Assembly (NCBI GenBank): GCA_001920415.1
Contig: MNJR01000142.1
Coordinates: 17,327 to 81,326 of the forward strand
Direction: 5' to 3'
Length of the DNA: 64,000 bases
Source of the DNA: Acidobacteria bacterium 13_1_20CM_3_53_8
GTDB taxonomy: Bacteria; Acidobacteriota; Blastocatellia; Pyrinomonadales; Pyrinomonadaceae
The position numbers were made by a program, and so were the translations under genes. A model generated the notes under the pieces. The model was not told the DNA's origin. It was given only the letters and a program-made list of their open reading frames with translations, and did not search any database. Positions 8,131-36,963 of the stretch are shown in pieces. How positions within the stretch are numbered: position 1 is the stretch's first letter; every line of letters starts with the position of its first letter.

Positions 8131-8985
8131 ATGTTCGTGGAGAGCAAAATCAAGACAAAGCTGCTCAGGCAGATGGGCGAGGCTATCAAGGATTTCGGGA
8201 TGATAGAAGATGGCGACCGCGTGATGGTCTGTTTGTCGGGCGGCAAGGACAGTTACACCATGCTAGACCTGCTGCTTGACGTGCAAAAGCGCGCGCCCGT
8301 GCGATTTGAGATTCTGGCTGTCAATTTAGACCAGAAGCAGCCGAACTTCCCCGAACATGTTCTGCCGGAATATTTGACCGAAAGAGGCGTGCCCTTCCGC
8401 ATAGTAGAGAGCGACACCTACTCGGCTGTAAAAAGATTAGTGCCCGAAGGCAAGACCTACTGCTCTGTCTGCTCGCGCCTGCGACGCGGCATTCTATACA
8501 ACACCGCTGTCGAAGAAGGCTGCACGAAGATTGCGCTAGGCCACCACGCTGACGACATCATAGCGACTTTCCTATTGAACCTCTTCTACGTCGGCACGCT
8601 CAAGGCTATGCCGCCCGTCTTGCGCTCTGACGATGGGCGCAACACTGTGATACGCCCGCTCTCCTACTGTCGAGAGAAAGAGATTGTAAAGTTTGCCGCA
8701 GAGAAGAATTTTCCGATTATCCCTTGCGACCTGTGCGGCTCGCAGACTACTTTGAAGCGAGTGCGCGTCAAGCGACTGATTGCCGAACTCGAAAAAGAGA
8801 TTCCGTACATACGCAACTCCATGATGACGGCGCTTACAAACGTTGCGCCCTCGCATCTGCTTGACCCGAATCTCTTCGACTTTAAGCGACTCACGGCTGG
8901 CAGGGGCGACATAGAGGCCGAGCTTGATCTGGCTGTAGGACACACGGACGTTGATACAGGCCCGTCGCTGGTTTCAATTGCGTAA
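8131..8985 (+). CDS. ttcA: tRNA 2-thiocytidine biosynthesis protein TtcA
   Basis: This 284-residue enzyme puts sulfur on C32 of certain tRNAs, using ATP and an iron-sulfur cluster. The PP-loop SGGKDS is at residues 36-41. Cysteine pairs are C111xxC114 ([11 protein letters not shown]) and C199xxC202 (PCDLCGSQ), as in TtcA and unlike TilS. The length fits the family. It stands alone between repeat-filled gaps. Its substrate tRNAs are not encoded beside it. Confidence 0.88.
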
Positions 8986-11524: not shown

Positions 11525-12073
11525 CTAGTGCTTGAAATCCTCTGCGACTAATGAATACATGAAAGCGTCGCGTGGGTTGCCGTGATGCAGCAATCGCTTG
11601 CGCAGTATGCCTTCCTGTCGCGCTCCGGCCTTTTCCGCAGCGCGTCGGCTGGCCGAGTTCTCAACGTCCATCACAATCTGTATGCGTTGCAGATGGAGTT
11701 CTTCCAACCCGAACTGAGCGACGCGTCGCGCAGCCTGTGAAGCTACGCCGCGACCAGCCGCGCTAGTTCTGACCCAATAGCCCAGACTGCAAAACTGATA
11801 ACAACGATTGAACTGGTTCAGCCCAGTGCTGCCCAGAAATCGCCCCGTCTCGGCATTGCAGATTGCAAAGCTGTATTCCTCCTCTTTCTTCCAGGCATCT
11901 TCACGAGACAGAACGTAATTCGCGCTCTCTGCAATCGAAAAATTTTCATGACACCAAGGCATCCAGGGCGAAATCTCTTTGATTGATTCGCGCGCGGCCT
12001 TATAGACCGCTTCAACATCTTCTGCGCGAAAGGTTCTGATGAGAATCTGGCCGACTAGAAATTCTTTTTCCAT
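11525..12073 (-). CDS. GNAT family N-acetyltransferase (RimJ/RimL-like)
   Basis: This 182-residue protein has the RimL-type fold: ILIRTFRAEDVEAVYKAARE at the start, FLGSTGLNQF as the central strand, and an acetyl-CoA loop near GYWVRTSAAGRGVASQAARR. It likely acetylates a protein N-terminus or small amine; the substrate is not predictable. It is encoded 17 bp after a second GNAT gene on the same strand, so the two are probably co-transcribed. They are only distant paralogues. Confidence 0.85.
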   Translation of the reverse strand: MEKEFLVGQILIRTFRAEDVEAVYKAARESIKEISPWMPWCHENFSIAESANYVLSREDAWKKEEEYSFAICNAETGRFLGSTGLNQFNRCYQFCSLGYWVRTSAAGRGVASQAARRVAQFGLEELHLQRIQIVMDVENSASRRAAEKAGARQEGILRKRLLHHGNPRDAFMYSLVAEDFKH

Positions 12074-12090
12074 CTAACTCTCCAAAATCT

Positions 12091-12681
12091 TCATGAGCGA
12101 ACTTCGTCGGGCTTCAATTTAGTGTTCGTGAGCGCAGTCAGTATATGATCTTCCCAGCGCCCTGCTATCAAAAGGTAATCGCGCGCGTAACCTTCTACGC
12201 TGAATCCCAAACGGCGTAGTACGCGCCCGCTCCGCTCGTTGCGCGGCATGTAGTTAGCCATGATGCGATGCAGGCGCAGTTCATCGAAGACGTAACGAAT
12301 GGCTGCGGTCAGGGCTTCGTGCATCAGCCCACGACCCACAGCCTCTTTATCCAGCATGTAACCCAGATAGCAAGCCTGAAACGGGCCGCGTATGAAATTA
12401 GTGAAGTTGCATGTACCCAGAACGCGCCCGTCCTTTTGGTTTCGGCGGAAGAAGACAAGGCGTAGAGATTCACGGCGCTTGAATTCCTCGCGCGCCGTGC
12501 GAAGCCGCTCGCGCCAGTATTTTTCCGTAAAATATTCTTTGGGCACGAGTGGCGACCACTGCGCGTGGTGCTCGCGGTTTTCTGTGACATAACTGACCAT
12601 GCGCTGCGCCGCAGAAACGGGCGGCAGAGTTAGCATTAATCGTCTGGTCTTTATCAACGGAATTTCATCTCGCTCTGACAT
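12091..12681 (-). CDS. GNAT family N-acetyltransferase (RimJ-like)
   Basis: This 196-residue acetyltransferase has RRLMLTLPPVSAAQRMVSYV at the N-terminus, then GTCNFTNFIRG, and the CoA-binding stretch GYMLDKEAVGRGLMHEALTA. A C-terminal YARDYLLIAGRWEDHIL segment is typical of ribosomal-protein alanine acetyltransferase (RimJ) relatives. It is first in a two-gene GNAT operon. The substrate remains uncertain. Confidence 0.85.
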   Translation of the reverse strand: MSERDEIPLIKTRRLMLTLPPVSAAQRMVSYVTENREHHAQWSPLVPKEYFTEKYWRERLRTAREEFKRRESLRLVFFRRNQKDGRVLGTCNFTNFIRGPFQACYLGYMLDKEAVGRGLMHEALTAAIRYVFDELRLHRIMANYMPRNERSGRVLRRLGFSVEGYARDYLLIAGRWEDHILTALTNTKLKPDEVRS

Positions 12682-12735: not shown

Positions 12736-12775
12736 ACAAAAACCCTCGCCCTGAGAGAATCTCAAGGCAAGGGTT
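12736..12775 (-). terminator. hairpin terminator of the Asn/Gly-repeat secreted protein gene
   Basis: A stem of AACCCTTGCCTTGAG with CTCAGGGCGAGGGTT (minus strand, one mismatch region) is followed by TTTTTG. It lies about 30 bp past the stop of the gene ending at 12806. Confidence 0.65.
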
Positions 12776-12805: not shown

Positions 12806-13366
12806 TTAGCGCGGCGGGCGATTGCTATTAGTGTTCCCGCTCGTATTGCTGTTGATTGGCCCACGCGGTGTGCCCGGAGTTGGATTGGGACCGCGCTCTA
12901 TCCTGCGAGGCGTCCCCGGAGTCGGGTTGCCTCTGTTCGTGTGTGTATTGCCGTTAGTATTCCCGTTGCTGTTCACGTTGGCATTCATGTTTGTATTGCT
13001 GTTCATGTTGCCATTCGTGTTCCCGTTCGAGTTGAAGTTCGAGTTAGTGTTGGTGTTCGTGTTGATGTTCGTATTCGTGTTCGTGTTTGAGTTCGAGTTC
13101 ATGTTGCCGTTCATATTCCCGTTGGCATTCGTGTTCCCGTTTTCGTTGCCGTTCATGTTACCGTTCGTGTTCTCGTTACGGTTGATCGGCCCACGCGGTG
13201 TGCCGGGTTCTGGGTTACGACCACGCCCGCGATTACTCGTGGGCACGCCCGGCGTTGCATTGTTGTTCTGCGTCCCCTGCCCTGTCGGCAGCGCTATGAC
13301 TGAGATGGCGAAAAGGACTAAGAATAAGGCTACGCCTTTCGCTGCATCAATTAGTCTAGACTTCAT
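12806..13366 (-). CDS. small secreted protein with Asn-x repeats and PGTPR motifs
   Basis: The start is set at 13366 because AAGGAGGAG lies just upstream of that ATG, which gives 186 residues. A signal peptide covers about 1-30 (VALFLVLFAISVIALPTG). Next comes NATPGVPTSNRGRGRNPEPG with TPRG, then about 85 residues of near-perfect Asn-x dipeptides (NTNGNMNGN type). The C-terminus has two NPTPGTPR copies. Nothing catalytic is visible. The first motif block is shared with the next secreted gene, showing paralogy. Probably an extracellular or envelope protein of low structure; function unknown. Confidence 0.75.
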   Translation of the reverse strand: MKSRLIDAAKGVALFLVLFAISVIALPTGQGTQNNNATPGVPTSNRGRGRNPEPGTPRGPINRNENTNGNMNGNENGNTNANGNMNGNMNSNSNTNTNTNINTNTNTNSNFNSNGNTNGNMNSNTNMNANVNSNGNTNGNTHTNRGNPTPGTPRRIERGPNPTPGTPRGPINSNTSGNTNSNRPPR

Positions 13367-13532
13367 GCAAAGCTCCTCCTTGTGAATCCCTGCCATGAAG
13401 GCAGAGAATAAGAGTTAGGGCACACAGGGAAAAAGTTTAAGGAGAATAAGGGAATTTTTTATGGGTGGCTGTGTTTAGTCTACAACTTGACAGCGCCCTT
13501 TACAAGCACAGTGGGAAAGCAAAGATGAAGAA

Positions 13533-13634
13533 GAGACGCGGAGACGCGGAGAGAAAAAACAAACTAATGTTACCTGAGTAATATCCAACCTCTCCGTTTT
13601 TTCGCCGCGTCTCCGTGTCCCCGCGTCTCCGCGT
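13533..13634. repeat. hairpin repeat, GAGACGCGGAGACGCGG family (copy 1)
   Basis: The left arm (13533-13553, GAGACGCGGAGACGCGGAGA) pairs with the longer right arm (13589-13634, rich in CCGCGTCTCCG). The loop contains TAATGTTACCTGAG. A second copy at 36822-36953 forms the end of a methyltransferase gene. Confidence 0.8.
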
Positions 13635-13652
13635 CATTTCCTCCCCACCAGA

Positions 13653-13991
13653 TCAATGATTGTGGTGGTGACGGCGCACCCTGCGGCGGCGCGGGATGCC
13701 CGGAAACGGGTTACGATTGTCATGGTGCGTATGTCGAAAGATGCGGCTGCGATAGATACGCCCGCGCGGAATGCCCGGGTCTGAATAGCGCCCGCGCCCG
13801 CGCGGACTCTCCGGGATGCCCGGCGTAGCATTGGGCAATCCCACAATGCTGGGTCTGCCTCCGCCGTGACCACCACCGCGCCCGTGACCGCCGCCGTGAC
13901 CCTGTCCGAATGCGATTGGTGCGCAGACTAATAGAGACAATAAAAGAAGTGCTGTCGCGGCCAATTTGCCGCCTGAAATTTTCGCAAACAT
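13653..13991 (-). CDS. small secreted Gly/His/Arg-rich protein with PGIPR motifs
   Basis: The ATG at 13991 follows AAGGAGGG with good spacing, giving 112 residues. A signal peptide runs to about residue 30 (ending CAPIAFGQ), then GHGGGHGRGGGHGGGRPS. The following block NATPGIPESPRGRGRYSDPG with IPRG closely parallels the preceding secreted protein. The C-terminus has NPFPGIPRRRRVRRHHHNH, strongly basic. Possible roles such as metal or polyanion binding are guesses. One of three tandem secreted PGxPR proteins. Confidence 0.72.
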   Translation of the reverse strand: MFAKISGGKLAATALLLLSLLVCAPIAFGQGHGGGHGRGGGHGGGRPSIVGLPNATPGIPESPRGRGRYSDPGIPRGRIYRSRIFRHTHHDNRNPFPGIPRRRRVRRHHHNH

Positions 13992-14149
13992 ACCTAATCC
14001 CTCCTTTTGAGCATTTACAGGCTCGATCATCTTCACATAGTTCGCGGGGGTATTAGGGAGAGTGCTTGAGCGAATATAGAAGCTACTGATGAAGAATCAA
14101 CGGATTAAATCTCAAATTTGTGTTGAGTCTGTATGTTCTGAGCACGAAG

Positions 14150-14198
14150 AAAAGGCTCATTGTTCTGCCCGGACTTGGCCGAAGCAGTACAATGAGCC
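14150..14198 (-). terminator. hairpin terminator of the 69-residue secreted protein gene
   Basis: A perfect 10-bp stem GGCTCATTGT / ACAATGAGCC (14154-14163 and 14189-14198) is followed on the minus strand by TTTTC. It lies about 40 bp past the stop of the gene ending at 14235. Confidence 0.6.
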
Positions 14199-14234
14199 GC
14201 CGAAGACTGTAGAGAGAGACCGAGGCGCGGATTG

Positions 14235-14444
14235 TCAACGAGTATTCGCGTTGTTGACGGAGCGGCGCGGCGTGCCCGGATGACGGTTACGCCCGCGATG
14301 GACTCTGCGCCCTCTGTGGTGCTTCATATGCCCGTGCCCGCGCATGTTGCCCATGCCGTTGCACTGCGCATTAGCCGAAACAGATAAGCCTGTCATCAAT
14401 ACGGCAGCAAGGCTGATTACTTTGATAGCTCGCCAAATTTTCAT
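14235..14444 (-). CDS. tiny secreted basic protein with a HPGTPRR motif
   Basis: This 69-residue precursor has a clear signal peptide ending near SVSANAQ (about residue 26). The mature part is a Gly/His/Arg-rich peptide, MRGHGHMKHHRGRRVHRG and RNRHPGTPRRSVNN. AGGAGGA stands at good distance from the ATG at 14444. It has its own terminator. The HPGTPRR segment links it to the two upstream-lying secreted genes on the same strand. Function unknown. Confidence 0.68.
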   Translation of the reverse strand: MKIWRAIKVISLAAVLMTGLSVSANAQCNGMGNMRGHGHMKHHRGRRVHRGRNRHPGTPRRSVNNANTR

Positions 14445-14812: not shown

Positions 14813-16498
14813 TTAGCTGCTCGTTCCAACGCTCTCAGTTTGTGCGCCCGCGCGGCGGCGGTAGCGGTGCGTAATGGGGCGGCGTCGGCCAATTCCTATG
14901 GCGTTGCGCGAGATGATGAGCGTCGGAGGCAGTTGACGGCGCTTGAATTCGTTGGCGGGCGATTCGACGCGATTCAGTAGGTCGTAAACAAGTTCGGCGT
15001 CGCGGCCTGCGGCTACGATCTCTTCGGGCGTAGCCTTCTGTTCAAAATACATCTTCAGTATGGGATCAATCTTTTCGTAAGGCGGCAACGTTTGTTCATC
15101 GAACTGTCCGGGCGCAAGCTCCGCACTTGGTTTCTTCTCTATTATGGCGTTTGGAATTATCTCGCTCTGCCGGTTGTAATGGCGCGCTAAGCTGTAAACT
15201 TCAGTCTTCAACAGATCACCGATGACCGCCAGACCGCCGTTCGTGTCACCGTAGAGCGTGCAGTAGCCCAGCGCGAGTTCCGATTTGTTGCCTGTGGAAA
15301 GAAGCAGACGGCCTTCGGCGTTCGAGATGCTCATCAGTATGTTGCCCCTTAGACGCGACTGAAGATTTTCTGCTGCGAGCACATCGCCGCCTCGCGTGGG
15401 TTTTTGGAGATTAAGCTCTTTAACCAGCACCTCGAAAGCATCCGAGATAGGATGCTCTATGATTTTCATTCCGAGCGTGCGCCCCAATGCGAGCGAATCC
15501 TCTATGCTCCCGCGCGACGAATAAGGCGAAGGCATCATCACGCCTAAAACATTCTCAGACCCGATTGCTTCGCACGCGAGCGCCGCAACGACCGCAGAAT
15601 CAATCCCGCCCGAAAGCCCCAGCACTGCCGTAGTGAACCGATTTTTTCGGGCGTAATCATGTATGCCAAGCACTAGCGCGCGTTTGATAGTTTCAATATC
15701 TTCACCGGGCAGGCAATAGTCGTCTGCAACTCCGCAATCCAGATCAACCGTCCCGAAGAACTCTTCAAACGGCGGAGCTTGCAAAATAATCTCGCCCTTA
15801 CAATCCGCTACAATGCTTGCGCCATCGAAGATGATGCCGTCGTTTGCTCCAACCAGATTGACGAAGACAATCGGCAGCCCTGCGGCTTTCGCGCGGTGCG
15901 AGACCATCTTGCAACGCTGTCCCATCTTGCCTTTATTGAATGGCGATGCGTTGATTGATACCAGCACGCTCGCGCCCAGTTCAATCAATTCGTCAACGGG
16001 ATCGTTAGCGTAAAGACGCTCGCGCCAGAACGTCTTGTCGTTCCACATGTCCTCGCAGATGCCCACGCCGAGCATGCCGCTTTTTATCGGGAACAGTTGA
16101 TGCCCGTGCGCAGGCTCGAAATAGCGCGGATCGTCAAAGACATCGTATTCTGGCAACAGGGTTTTGTCTTCGTAGCCTATCAACTTTCCATTCTGAATTA
16201 TCGCCGCAGAGTTGTAGAGTCTTCGCCCTGTAGGCTGGTCAGTCGGGCGCGCCGTGCCGACGACAGCCGTCAATCCTTCCGTCGCAGGGATTATCTGTTC
16301 GAGCGGTTTAAGAACGTCCCGCGAAACGTCGCGGTCTAGAAACCAATCGAAAGACATGTAGCCCTGCACTGCGATTTCGGGCAACACGACCAGATCAGCG
16401 CGATCCTTCTTTGCCCTCTCAATCGCGCGAAGAATGCTCGCAGTGTTTCCCTCGTAGTCGCCGTTCGTAGTGTTTATCTGTCCGATTGTGACGCGCAT
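14813..16498 (-). CDS. nadE: glutamine-dependent NAD+ synthetase
   Basis: The enzyme has 561 residues. The N-terminal nitrilase-type glutaminase domain has Glu41 (LPEIAVQGY), Lys112 (DKTLLPEYDV) and catalytic Cys148 (GVGICEDMWND). The C-terminal synthetase carries the ATP loop LGLSGGIDSAVVAALA (about 294-309) and STGNKSELALGYCTLYGD. It converts deamido-NAD to NAD with ammonia channelled from Gln. The basic C-terminal tail (about 25 residues rich in Arg) is extra to the usual fold. Single gene, transcribed away from the hyu operon. Confidence 0.95.
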   Translation of the reverse strand: MRVTIGQINTTNGDYEGNTASILRAIERAKKDRADLVVLPEIAVQGYMSFDWFLDRDVSRDVLKPLEQIIPATEGLTAVVGTARPTDQPTGRRLYNSAAIIQNGKLIGYEDKTLLPEYDVFDDPRYFEPAHGHQLFPIKSGMLGVGICEDMWNDKTFWRERLYANDPVDELIELGASVLVSINASPFNKGKMGQRCKMVSHRAKAAGLPIVFVNLVGANDGIIFDGASIVADCKGEIILQAPPFEEFFGTVDLDCGVADDYCLPGEDIETIKRALVLGIHDYARKNRFTTAVLGLSGGIDSAVVAALACEAIGSENVLGVMMPSPYSSRGSIEDSLALGRTLGMKIIEHPISDAFEVLVKELNLQKPTRGGDVLAAENLQSRLRGNILMSISNAEGRLLLSTGNKSELALGYCTLYGDTNGGLAVIGDLLKTEVYSLARHYNRQSEIIPNAIIEKKPSAELAPGQFDEQTLPPYEKIDPILKMYFEQKATPEEIVAAGRDAELVYDLLNRVESPANEFKRRQLPPTLIISRNAIGIGRRRPITHRYRRRAGAQTESVGTSS

Positions 16499-35908: not shown

Positions 35909-36963
35909 TAACGGATAACGAAACGCTTGTGGCAGATGCGCCGCGAAAACTGTTTGGAAGTTCTAACGAAGCCGTGCGTTCCGCGCTCAATCAATTCGAG
36001 GAGGTCGCGTGCCCGCTCTGCTGCGTGACTCCCGTGCGCTTTGCGGTTGATTATCAGGGCTTTCAACTTTGTCGTTGTCCTACATGCGACTTACAGTTTT
36101 TAAGTCCGCGTCCGACCGTAGAGCAGTTGACCGAGAACGTCTACAACGAAACATATTTTTCGGAATCTGAATCTGCAAATGAACTTGCAGCCGCCGACCG
36201 CTATCAATTCGGTCGGCAACTTGGAAACTTTGAAAAGTTTCTGGCCGGTCGCGGAACCATATTGGACGTTGGCTGCGGCGATGGCTCGTTCCTTCGTTAC
36301 GCGCAAAGTGAAGGTTGGCGGGTGGCTGGCACAGACATACGGTTGGCTGCGGGCGCGCGCGCAATGAGTTGCCCTCTATGGGAAGGCCAGTTGCAAGAGA
36401 TTGATTTCGGAGGCCGCCGCTTTGACGTTGTTCGCTTCAATCAAGTGCTCGAACATACGCAGAACCCTCTGCTTGAATTAGCGCGCAGCCGCGAGTTGCT
36501 CAATGCGGGCGGTATAGTCTTCGTCAGTGTGCCCAATATCGCCGGACTCAGTCCGCGCTTGAAGAGCGCGCAGAGCCGTTTTCATCTGAAGCGCAAACGC
36601 TGGCGCCATTACGCAGCGCTGCATCACCTATGGTTCTTCTCGACGGACACACTGCAACGTCTGGTTGAGCACGCAGGTCTTCGAGTGCTCCACTGGGAGA
36701 CTCCCGTTCTAAAGAAGAGCGGACAGAGTTCATTCATAGAGCGCCTGTACCGTAAATTCCTGGAAGGCTCACGCACGGCCAGCATTTTAGATTTCTACTG
36801 CCAGCGTGAAGAGACGGAAGGAGAGACGCGGGGACGCGGAGACGCGGAGACGCGGGGAGAAAGCAAGAGCAGTCATGCTCACTCTACATCAATTCTTCCG
36901 CTCATCCTTTTCCTTCGCCGCGTCCCCGCGTCCCCGCGTCTCCGCGTCTCTCTTTGCTTTTAG
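35893..36963 (+). CDS. zinc-ribbon class I SAM methyltransferase with repeat-encoded C-terminus
   Basis: The frame has 356 residues if TTG 35893 is the start; GTG 35929 is an alternative outside the repeat. N-terminal Cys pairs CPLC and CPTC form a zinc ribbon, followed by LDVGCGDGSFLRYAQSEGW (SAM site), VLEHTQNPLLEL and SVPNIAG. This matches methyltransferases of sugar or surface-glycan clusters. Residues after about 305 (REETEGETRGRGDAE onward) are translated from a GAGACGCGG hairpin, so the natural end is earlier. A glycosyltransferase gene overlaps the tail. Confidence 0.82.
   Translation: MASDFLTDNETLVADAPRKLFGSSNEAVRSALNQFEEVACPLCCVTPVRFAVDYQGFQLCRCPTCDLQFLSPRPTVEQLTENVYNETYFSESESANELAAADRYQFGRQLGNFEKFLAGRGTILDVGCGDGSFLRYAQSEGWRVAGTDIRLAAGARAMSCPLWEGQLQEIDFGGRRFDVVRFNQVLEHTQNPLLELARSRELLNAGGIVFVSVPNIAGLSPRLKSAQSRFHLKRKRWRHYAALHHLWFFSTDTLQRLVEHAGLRVLHWETPVLKKSGQSSFIERLYRKFLEGSRTASILDFYCQREETEGETRGRGDAETRGESKSSHAHSTSILPLILFLRRVPASPRLRVSLCF
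36822..36953. repeat. hairpin repeat, GAGACGCGGAGACGCGG family (copy 2)
   Basis: Arms 36822-36859 and 36916-36953 are complementary. It lies inside the 3' end of the methyltransferase frame and ends 15 bp before the ATG of the glycosyltransferase gene. Confidence 0.85.

Follow-up and report, generated by a model that had tools for sequence, protein, structure and literature searches.

Asr and similar enterobacterial periplasmic proteins are small, disordered, basic and rich in Lys, Ala and Gln, and they carry a signal peptide. Two other described systems are short segments instead of whole proteins. PEP-CTERM and MYXO-CTERM signals consist of a motif, then a membrane helix, then a basic tail, and the AT-hook, with its RGRP core, is found in DNA-binding proteins. 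Acidobacteriota are abundant in soil, and their secreted proteins are largely uncharacterised. Here we describe three small genes, P1, P2 and P3, of an acidobacterial genome of 6.1 Mb in 155 contigs (G000, contig 53). Their products would resemble Asr in a putative signal peptide, small size, probable disorder and a basic, His/Pro-containing mature part, but they are Arg/Gly/Asn-rich with no Pfam match, and we know of no PGxPR motif in Asr-type proteins. As with PEP-CTERM and MYXO-CTERM, a short conserved segment near the C-terminus occurs on unrelated exported proteins of one lineage; here, however, the motif has no helix after it, may be found at either terminus and may occur in several copies. 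Reading the carrier sequences by eye, we found nothing hydrophobic after the motif, and a sorting signal of the PEP-CTERM type was rejected. The AT-hook is likewise a short linear motif of Arg, Gly and Pro found in basic disordered proteins, whereas the core here is PGxPR[GR] and the proteins have signal-like N-termini. It was also rejected, as P1–P3 have no RGRP, P2 having just PRGRG. Our reading, with a probability of roughly 0.4, is that P1–P3 are exported, disordered, cationic proteins built on a lineage-specific short linear motif that binds an anionic partner in the envelope or matrix.

The original prediction of three tandem reading frames for small secreted proteins holds: downstream of nadE, in the order P3, P2, P1, all three are present on the minus strand of the window, which is the whole 64,000-nucleotide stretch analysed. 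P1 (12806–13366, 186 residues) is composed of a putative signal peptide, a PGxPR block, an Asn-x repeat of ~85 residues, a second PGxPR block and an Asn-rich tail. P2 (13653–13991, 112 residues) has a putative signal peptide, a Gly/His-rich part, a PGxPR block and the C-terminal DNRNPFPGIPRRRRVRRHHHNH, and P3 (14235–14444, 69 residues) has a putative signal peptide, a Met/Gly/His/Arg-rich part and the C-terminal RGRNRHPGTPRRSVNNANTR. The conserved upstream neighbour nadE (14813–16498, minus strand) encodes NAD synthase and CN_hydrolase domains. The other conserved boundary of the locus is a gene for a TtcA-like protein (8131–8985, plus strand), named by eye from SGGKDSY and CxxC. Two adjoining GNAT acetyltransferase genes (11525–12681) follow P1. 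As predicted, a strong Shine-Dalgarno sequence immediately precedes each of P1–P3 (AGGAGGAAGATAGAAATG, AAAGGAGGGATTAGGTATG and AAGGAGGAGCTTTGCATG). Promoter-like sites on the minus strand, assigned purely by consensus match, lie upstream of P3 (14516–14543, TTGACT-16-TATACT) and of P2 (14073–14100, TTGATT-16-TATATT). Two of the three genes had been credited with terminators of their own. On the minus strand, that of P1 is clear (12741–12775, a hairpin of 16 pairs with a TTTTTG tail) and P3 is followed by a terminator-like 15-nt inverted repeat (14154–14198) and TTTTC, while the gap between P1 and P2 holds a dispersed inverted-repeat element, not a simple terminator. This element (13520–13640) has GACGCGGAGACGCGGAGA arms, which match 74 times genome-wide, often as opposed arms; a further copy in the window is at 36825–36948. 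Between nadE and P3 (14640–14745) is a palindromic intergenic sequence, CACGAAACTACACGAAG ... TTCGTGTGATTTAGTGTGGCTTCGTGG, with a single copy in the window. No plasmid match was found, and a plasmid origin of the locus is unsupported.

PGxPR is a real motif. The blocks quoted in the original prediction are all in place, NATPGVPTSNRGRGRNPEPGTPRG in P1, NATPGIPESPRGRGRYSDPGIPRG in P2 and HPGTPRR in P3, and additional copies are found in P1 (NPTPGTPRR and NPTPGTPRGP) and in P2 (NPFPGIPRR). The consensus is RG-x-N-P-x-P-G-[TIV]-P-R-[GR]. P1 carries block A (13175–13267, NATPGVPTSNRGRGRNPEPGTPRGPIN, E = 7.3e-14) and block B (12845–12937, NPTPGTPRRIERGPNPTPGTPRGPIN, E = 3.1e-12), and P2 carries one block (13746–13838, NATPGIPESPRGRGRYSDPGIPRGRIY, E = 7.0e-15) and a C-terminal single motif (13671–13724, NPFPGIPRRRRVRR, E = 2.0e-4), all on the minus strand and all profile seeds, for which E-values are circular. 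The single motif of P3 (14250–14300, minus strand, RGRNRHPGTPRRSVNN) was matched at E = 1.9e-5 by a profile built without P3. The Asn-x stretch of P1, also foreseen, is a DNA array at 12951–13177 on the same strand. Together the three mature parts hold six PG[TIV]PR copies; shuffling gives 0.0086 on average, and none of 20,000 shuffles reached six. Over the 6.1-Mb genome the Nxx-PGxPR DNA pattern has eight matches, five of them inside this 1.6 kb, compared with three for the reversed-pattern control. A pattern demanding PRGRG after PG matched nothing. Convergence can likewise produce a short motif made of low-complexity residues. As the blocks of P1 and P2 share 71% identity across 84 nt and a 69-nt stretch is duplicated within P1, at least these two are related by duplication.

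Homologues, whose absence would have counted against the original prediction, do exist: motif profiles pick out relatives in several genera, all within the one Acidobacteriota family. With the double-block profile, G034, G035 and G109 each yielded a single small, basic, probably exported protein, and G040 yielded a weak match (E = 0.0036) that was later used as a seed. Non-seed matches of this profile include those in G035 (6.8e-11), G013 (7.1e-6), G038 (6.2e-5) and G009 (3.2e-4), and P2 itself as query finds a relative in G036 (E = 2.2e-9). By combining the Asn-x spacer seen in P1 with the RGRN..TPRRSVNN tail seen in P3, the G040 protein ties P1, P2 and P3 together. G034, G035 and G109 share the arrangement of the window, with the gene located in the interval from nadE to the TtcA-like gene. 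The G040 gene comes immediately after nadE, and the nadE–TtcA interval is empty in G038 and G039. After nadE in G036 (L111, 2187 onward) we also noted a different Gly/Arg-rich exported protein, which suggests that small exported proteins can replace one another at this site.

An expanded, lineage-specific exported family had been proposed. Its lineage specificity stands, while the expansion is limited to this genome (three tandem copies versus one in relatives) and the distribution is patchy, with small basic or Asn-rich proteins in 9 of 119 family genomes. Outside the family, no convincing match was found in 396 sampled genomes of the phylum or 162 genomes of the class. On reading, the weak profile matches there proved to be antisense or unrelated frames, as did most of the N-xx-PGxPR matches within the family. 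When 84,980 species genomes were scanned for exact DNA matches, three Acidobacteria MAGs were returned, corresponding to G038, G013 and G009, along with one 108-codon Streptomyces frame in which the motif stands almost at the beginning and which we took as chance. As had been anticipated, no known family was recognised: Pfam (all named motif carriers) and NCBIfam (P1–P3) gave nothing above the curated cut-offs. The best sub-threshold matches were between the Asn repeat of P1 and Bactofilin (15.8 bits against a cut-off of 27.9) and between the signal peptide of P3 and the PA0050 family (17.5 bits against 45). The motif proteins have no match in the PDB. Among the open-access papers searched, PGTPR and related strings appear in nine, and judged by title none of these deals with bacterial proteins. 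P1–P3 are an uncharacterised family of a generally known kind, and we found the motif described nowhere.

We ran an 18-column motif profile on the 119 family genomes and read the matches by eye. At E < 0.002, ~0.24 chance matches are expected over the 119 genomes, and every protein matched has a hydrophobic segment at its N-terminus, as judged by eye and with several matches being profile seeds. The motif occurs in Cys4 proteins with an Asn-x repeat (G009, G013 and G038), in a Cys4 protein with a Pro-Thr repeat (G036), at the mature N-terminus of a Pro-Ser repeat protein (G020, E only 0.0175), and in FecR-like proteins (G106, G107 and G038), which were named by eye and have no Pfam match. As it is present also in these unrelated exported proteins, the conserved unit is the motif rather than the whole proteins. 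In the FecR-like proteins it lies between two Cys in the tail PCRRGxNPxPGxPRGRNxECR, the best-conserved part, in which 17 of 21 residues are invariant versus 40–44% identity over the whole protein. Since this tail comes after a hydrophobic stretch and starts with CRRGR, it could face the cytoplasm by the positive-inside rule. A Cys4-Asn protein of G111 is without the motif, which is thus gained or lost as a module. Only ~12 of the 119 family genomes carry a convincing copy, and the motif is therefore dispensable. Two groups of candidates were set aside. The lipoproteins of genus g22 (L032–L035 and L037), which are conserved and match no Pfam family, have three TPGIP copies at ~20-residue spacing; TPGIP is all that they share, the Arg portion is missing, and we left them out of the count. 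Frames of repeated SSVRSGMFVACGRNKDPGAPRGATRFGP units (L083 1240–1660 in G061, also L087) are a DNA-level repeat mimicking the motif and were taken as unrelated.

The main rival to the binding of an anionic partner is that the motif serves as a lineage-specific extracytoplasmic recognition tag, in which a dedicated protease, cross-linking or attachment enzyme would read PGxPRG on unrelated exported proteins, so that these are processed or anchored in the envelope or matrix. This would suit a motif found on at least four different exported architectures, often 10–30 residues before the C-terminal end and next to a low-complexity spacer, and its strong conservation between the two Cys of the FecR-like tail. 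However, its position varies, being N-terminal in the G020 protein and repeated in P1 and P2, the small proteins have no membrane-anchor segment after it, and the related G111 protein does without it. No common neighbouring enzyme was found among the carriers: outside the nadE locus no neighbour is common to different carrier types, and our search found no partner, receptor or processing enzyme for the motif, which counts also against the binding of an anionic partner. We consider such a tag unlikely.

The codons of the motif bear on whether it is under selection as protein. Comparing motif copies in 78 pairs, we counted 62, 42, 12, 36 and 58 synonymous differences at the fixed positions 2, 7, 8, 11 and 12 (G, P, G, R and G), respectively, and 0 non-synonymous ones; as the fixed residues help define the motif, the zero is partly by construction and the synonymous counts are the informative half. 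G013 and G038, which belong to different genera, have an identical 20-residue block with 13 synonymous differences. The many silent differences between copies indicate that the motif DNA is old and its protein sequence has been kept. These data argue against fast-evolving, nearly neutral exported low-complexity ORFs in which a functionless motif was spread by DNA-level repeat expansion, and so does the FecR-like tail, conserved more than the rest of its protein. Low complexity, patchy distribution, the Asn-x tandem array, internal duplications and the empty nadE–TtcA gap of G038 and G039 would agree with neutrality, but the fixed residues differ only synonymously across genera, and we regard this explanation as very improbable.

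The N-termini of P1–P3 are signal-peptide-like by eye and by hydrophobicity, in line with the predicted signal peptides, and the three proteins are presumably exported. Their mature parts are as basic as had been claimed, with pI ~12, net charge of +8 to +21 and hydrophobic content of 10–23%. AlphaFold gives P2 a signal helix only, the mature part having pLDDT ~45–53 and no secondary structure, which with five sequences is weak evidence of disorder; the low pLDDT agrees with the composition. Hence the mature part of P2 is predicted to be disordered, and those of P1 and P3 are probably so. The model of the FecR-like protein (pLDDT 35) was too poor for use. In P2, P3 and the relatives from G034, G035, G109 and G036, 6–14% of the mature residues are His, and these are clustered (e.g., HHHNH and HGKHKHK). 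This raises the idea of periplasmic or surface buffers that take up metal or protons through the His/Gly/Arg-rich parts, as proposed for acid-shock-type proteins. Yet a single His is present in P1 and three are present in the G040 relative, although both proteins have the motif, and the conserved motif has no fixed His or Cys, which makes a buffer quite unlikely. Small size, signal-like N-termini, positive charge, tandem copies and rapid evolution outside the motif would also fit antimicrobial peptides that are secreted, cationic and rich in Pro, Arg and Gly. Known proline-rich antimicrobial peptides are similarly Pro/Arg-rich, cationic and secreted, but the motif is also on larger FecR-like and Cys-rich proteins, and no immunity, maturation, processing or dedicated export gene was recognised alongside, the neighbours being the nadE and GNAT genes. 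An antimicrobial function is thus very unlikely. Judged by composition, the binding of a polyanion is a better fit than a role purely in metal binding or in antimicrobial action.

The motif is conserved at the protein level, the small proteins share a common locus, and the motif recurs in different proteins with signal-like N-termini. For the binding of an anionic partner we envisage that duplication at an old post-nadE locus gave rise to P1–P3, and that their functional core would be the short linear motif common to unrelated exported proteins of this bacterial family. The motif would display an Arg-flanked Pro-Gly turn outside the cytoplasm, with the Asn-x, Gly/His or Pro-Thr stretches as flexible spacers, and the turn may bind a surface polysaccharide, a peptidoglycan-linked polymer or extracellular DNA. 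The polyanionic nature of the partner, above all, is what we infer. Conserved at the protein level across genera and without an entry in the family databases searched, the motif offers a concrete handle on the surface organisation of these bacteria.
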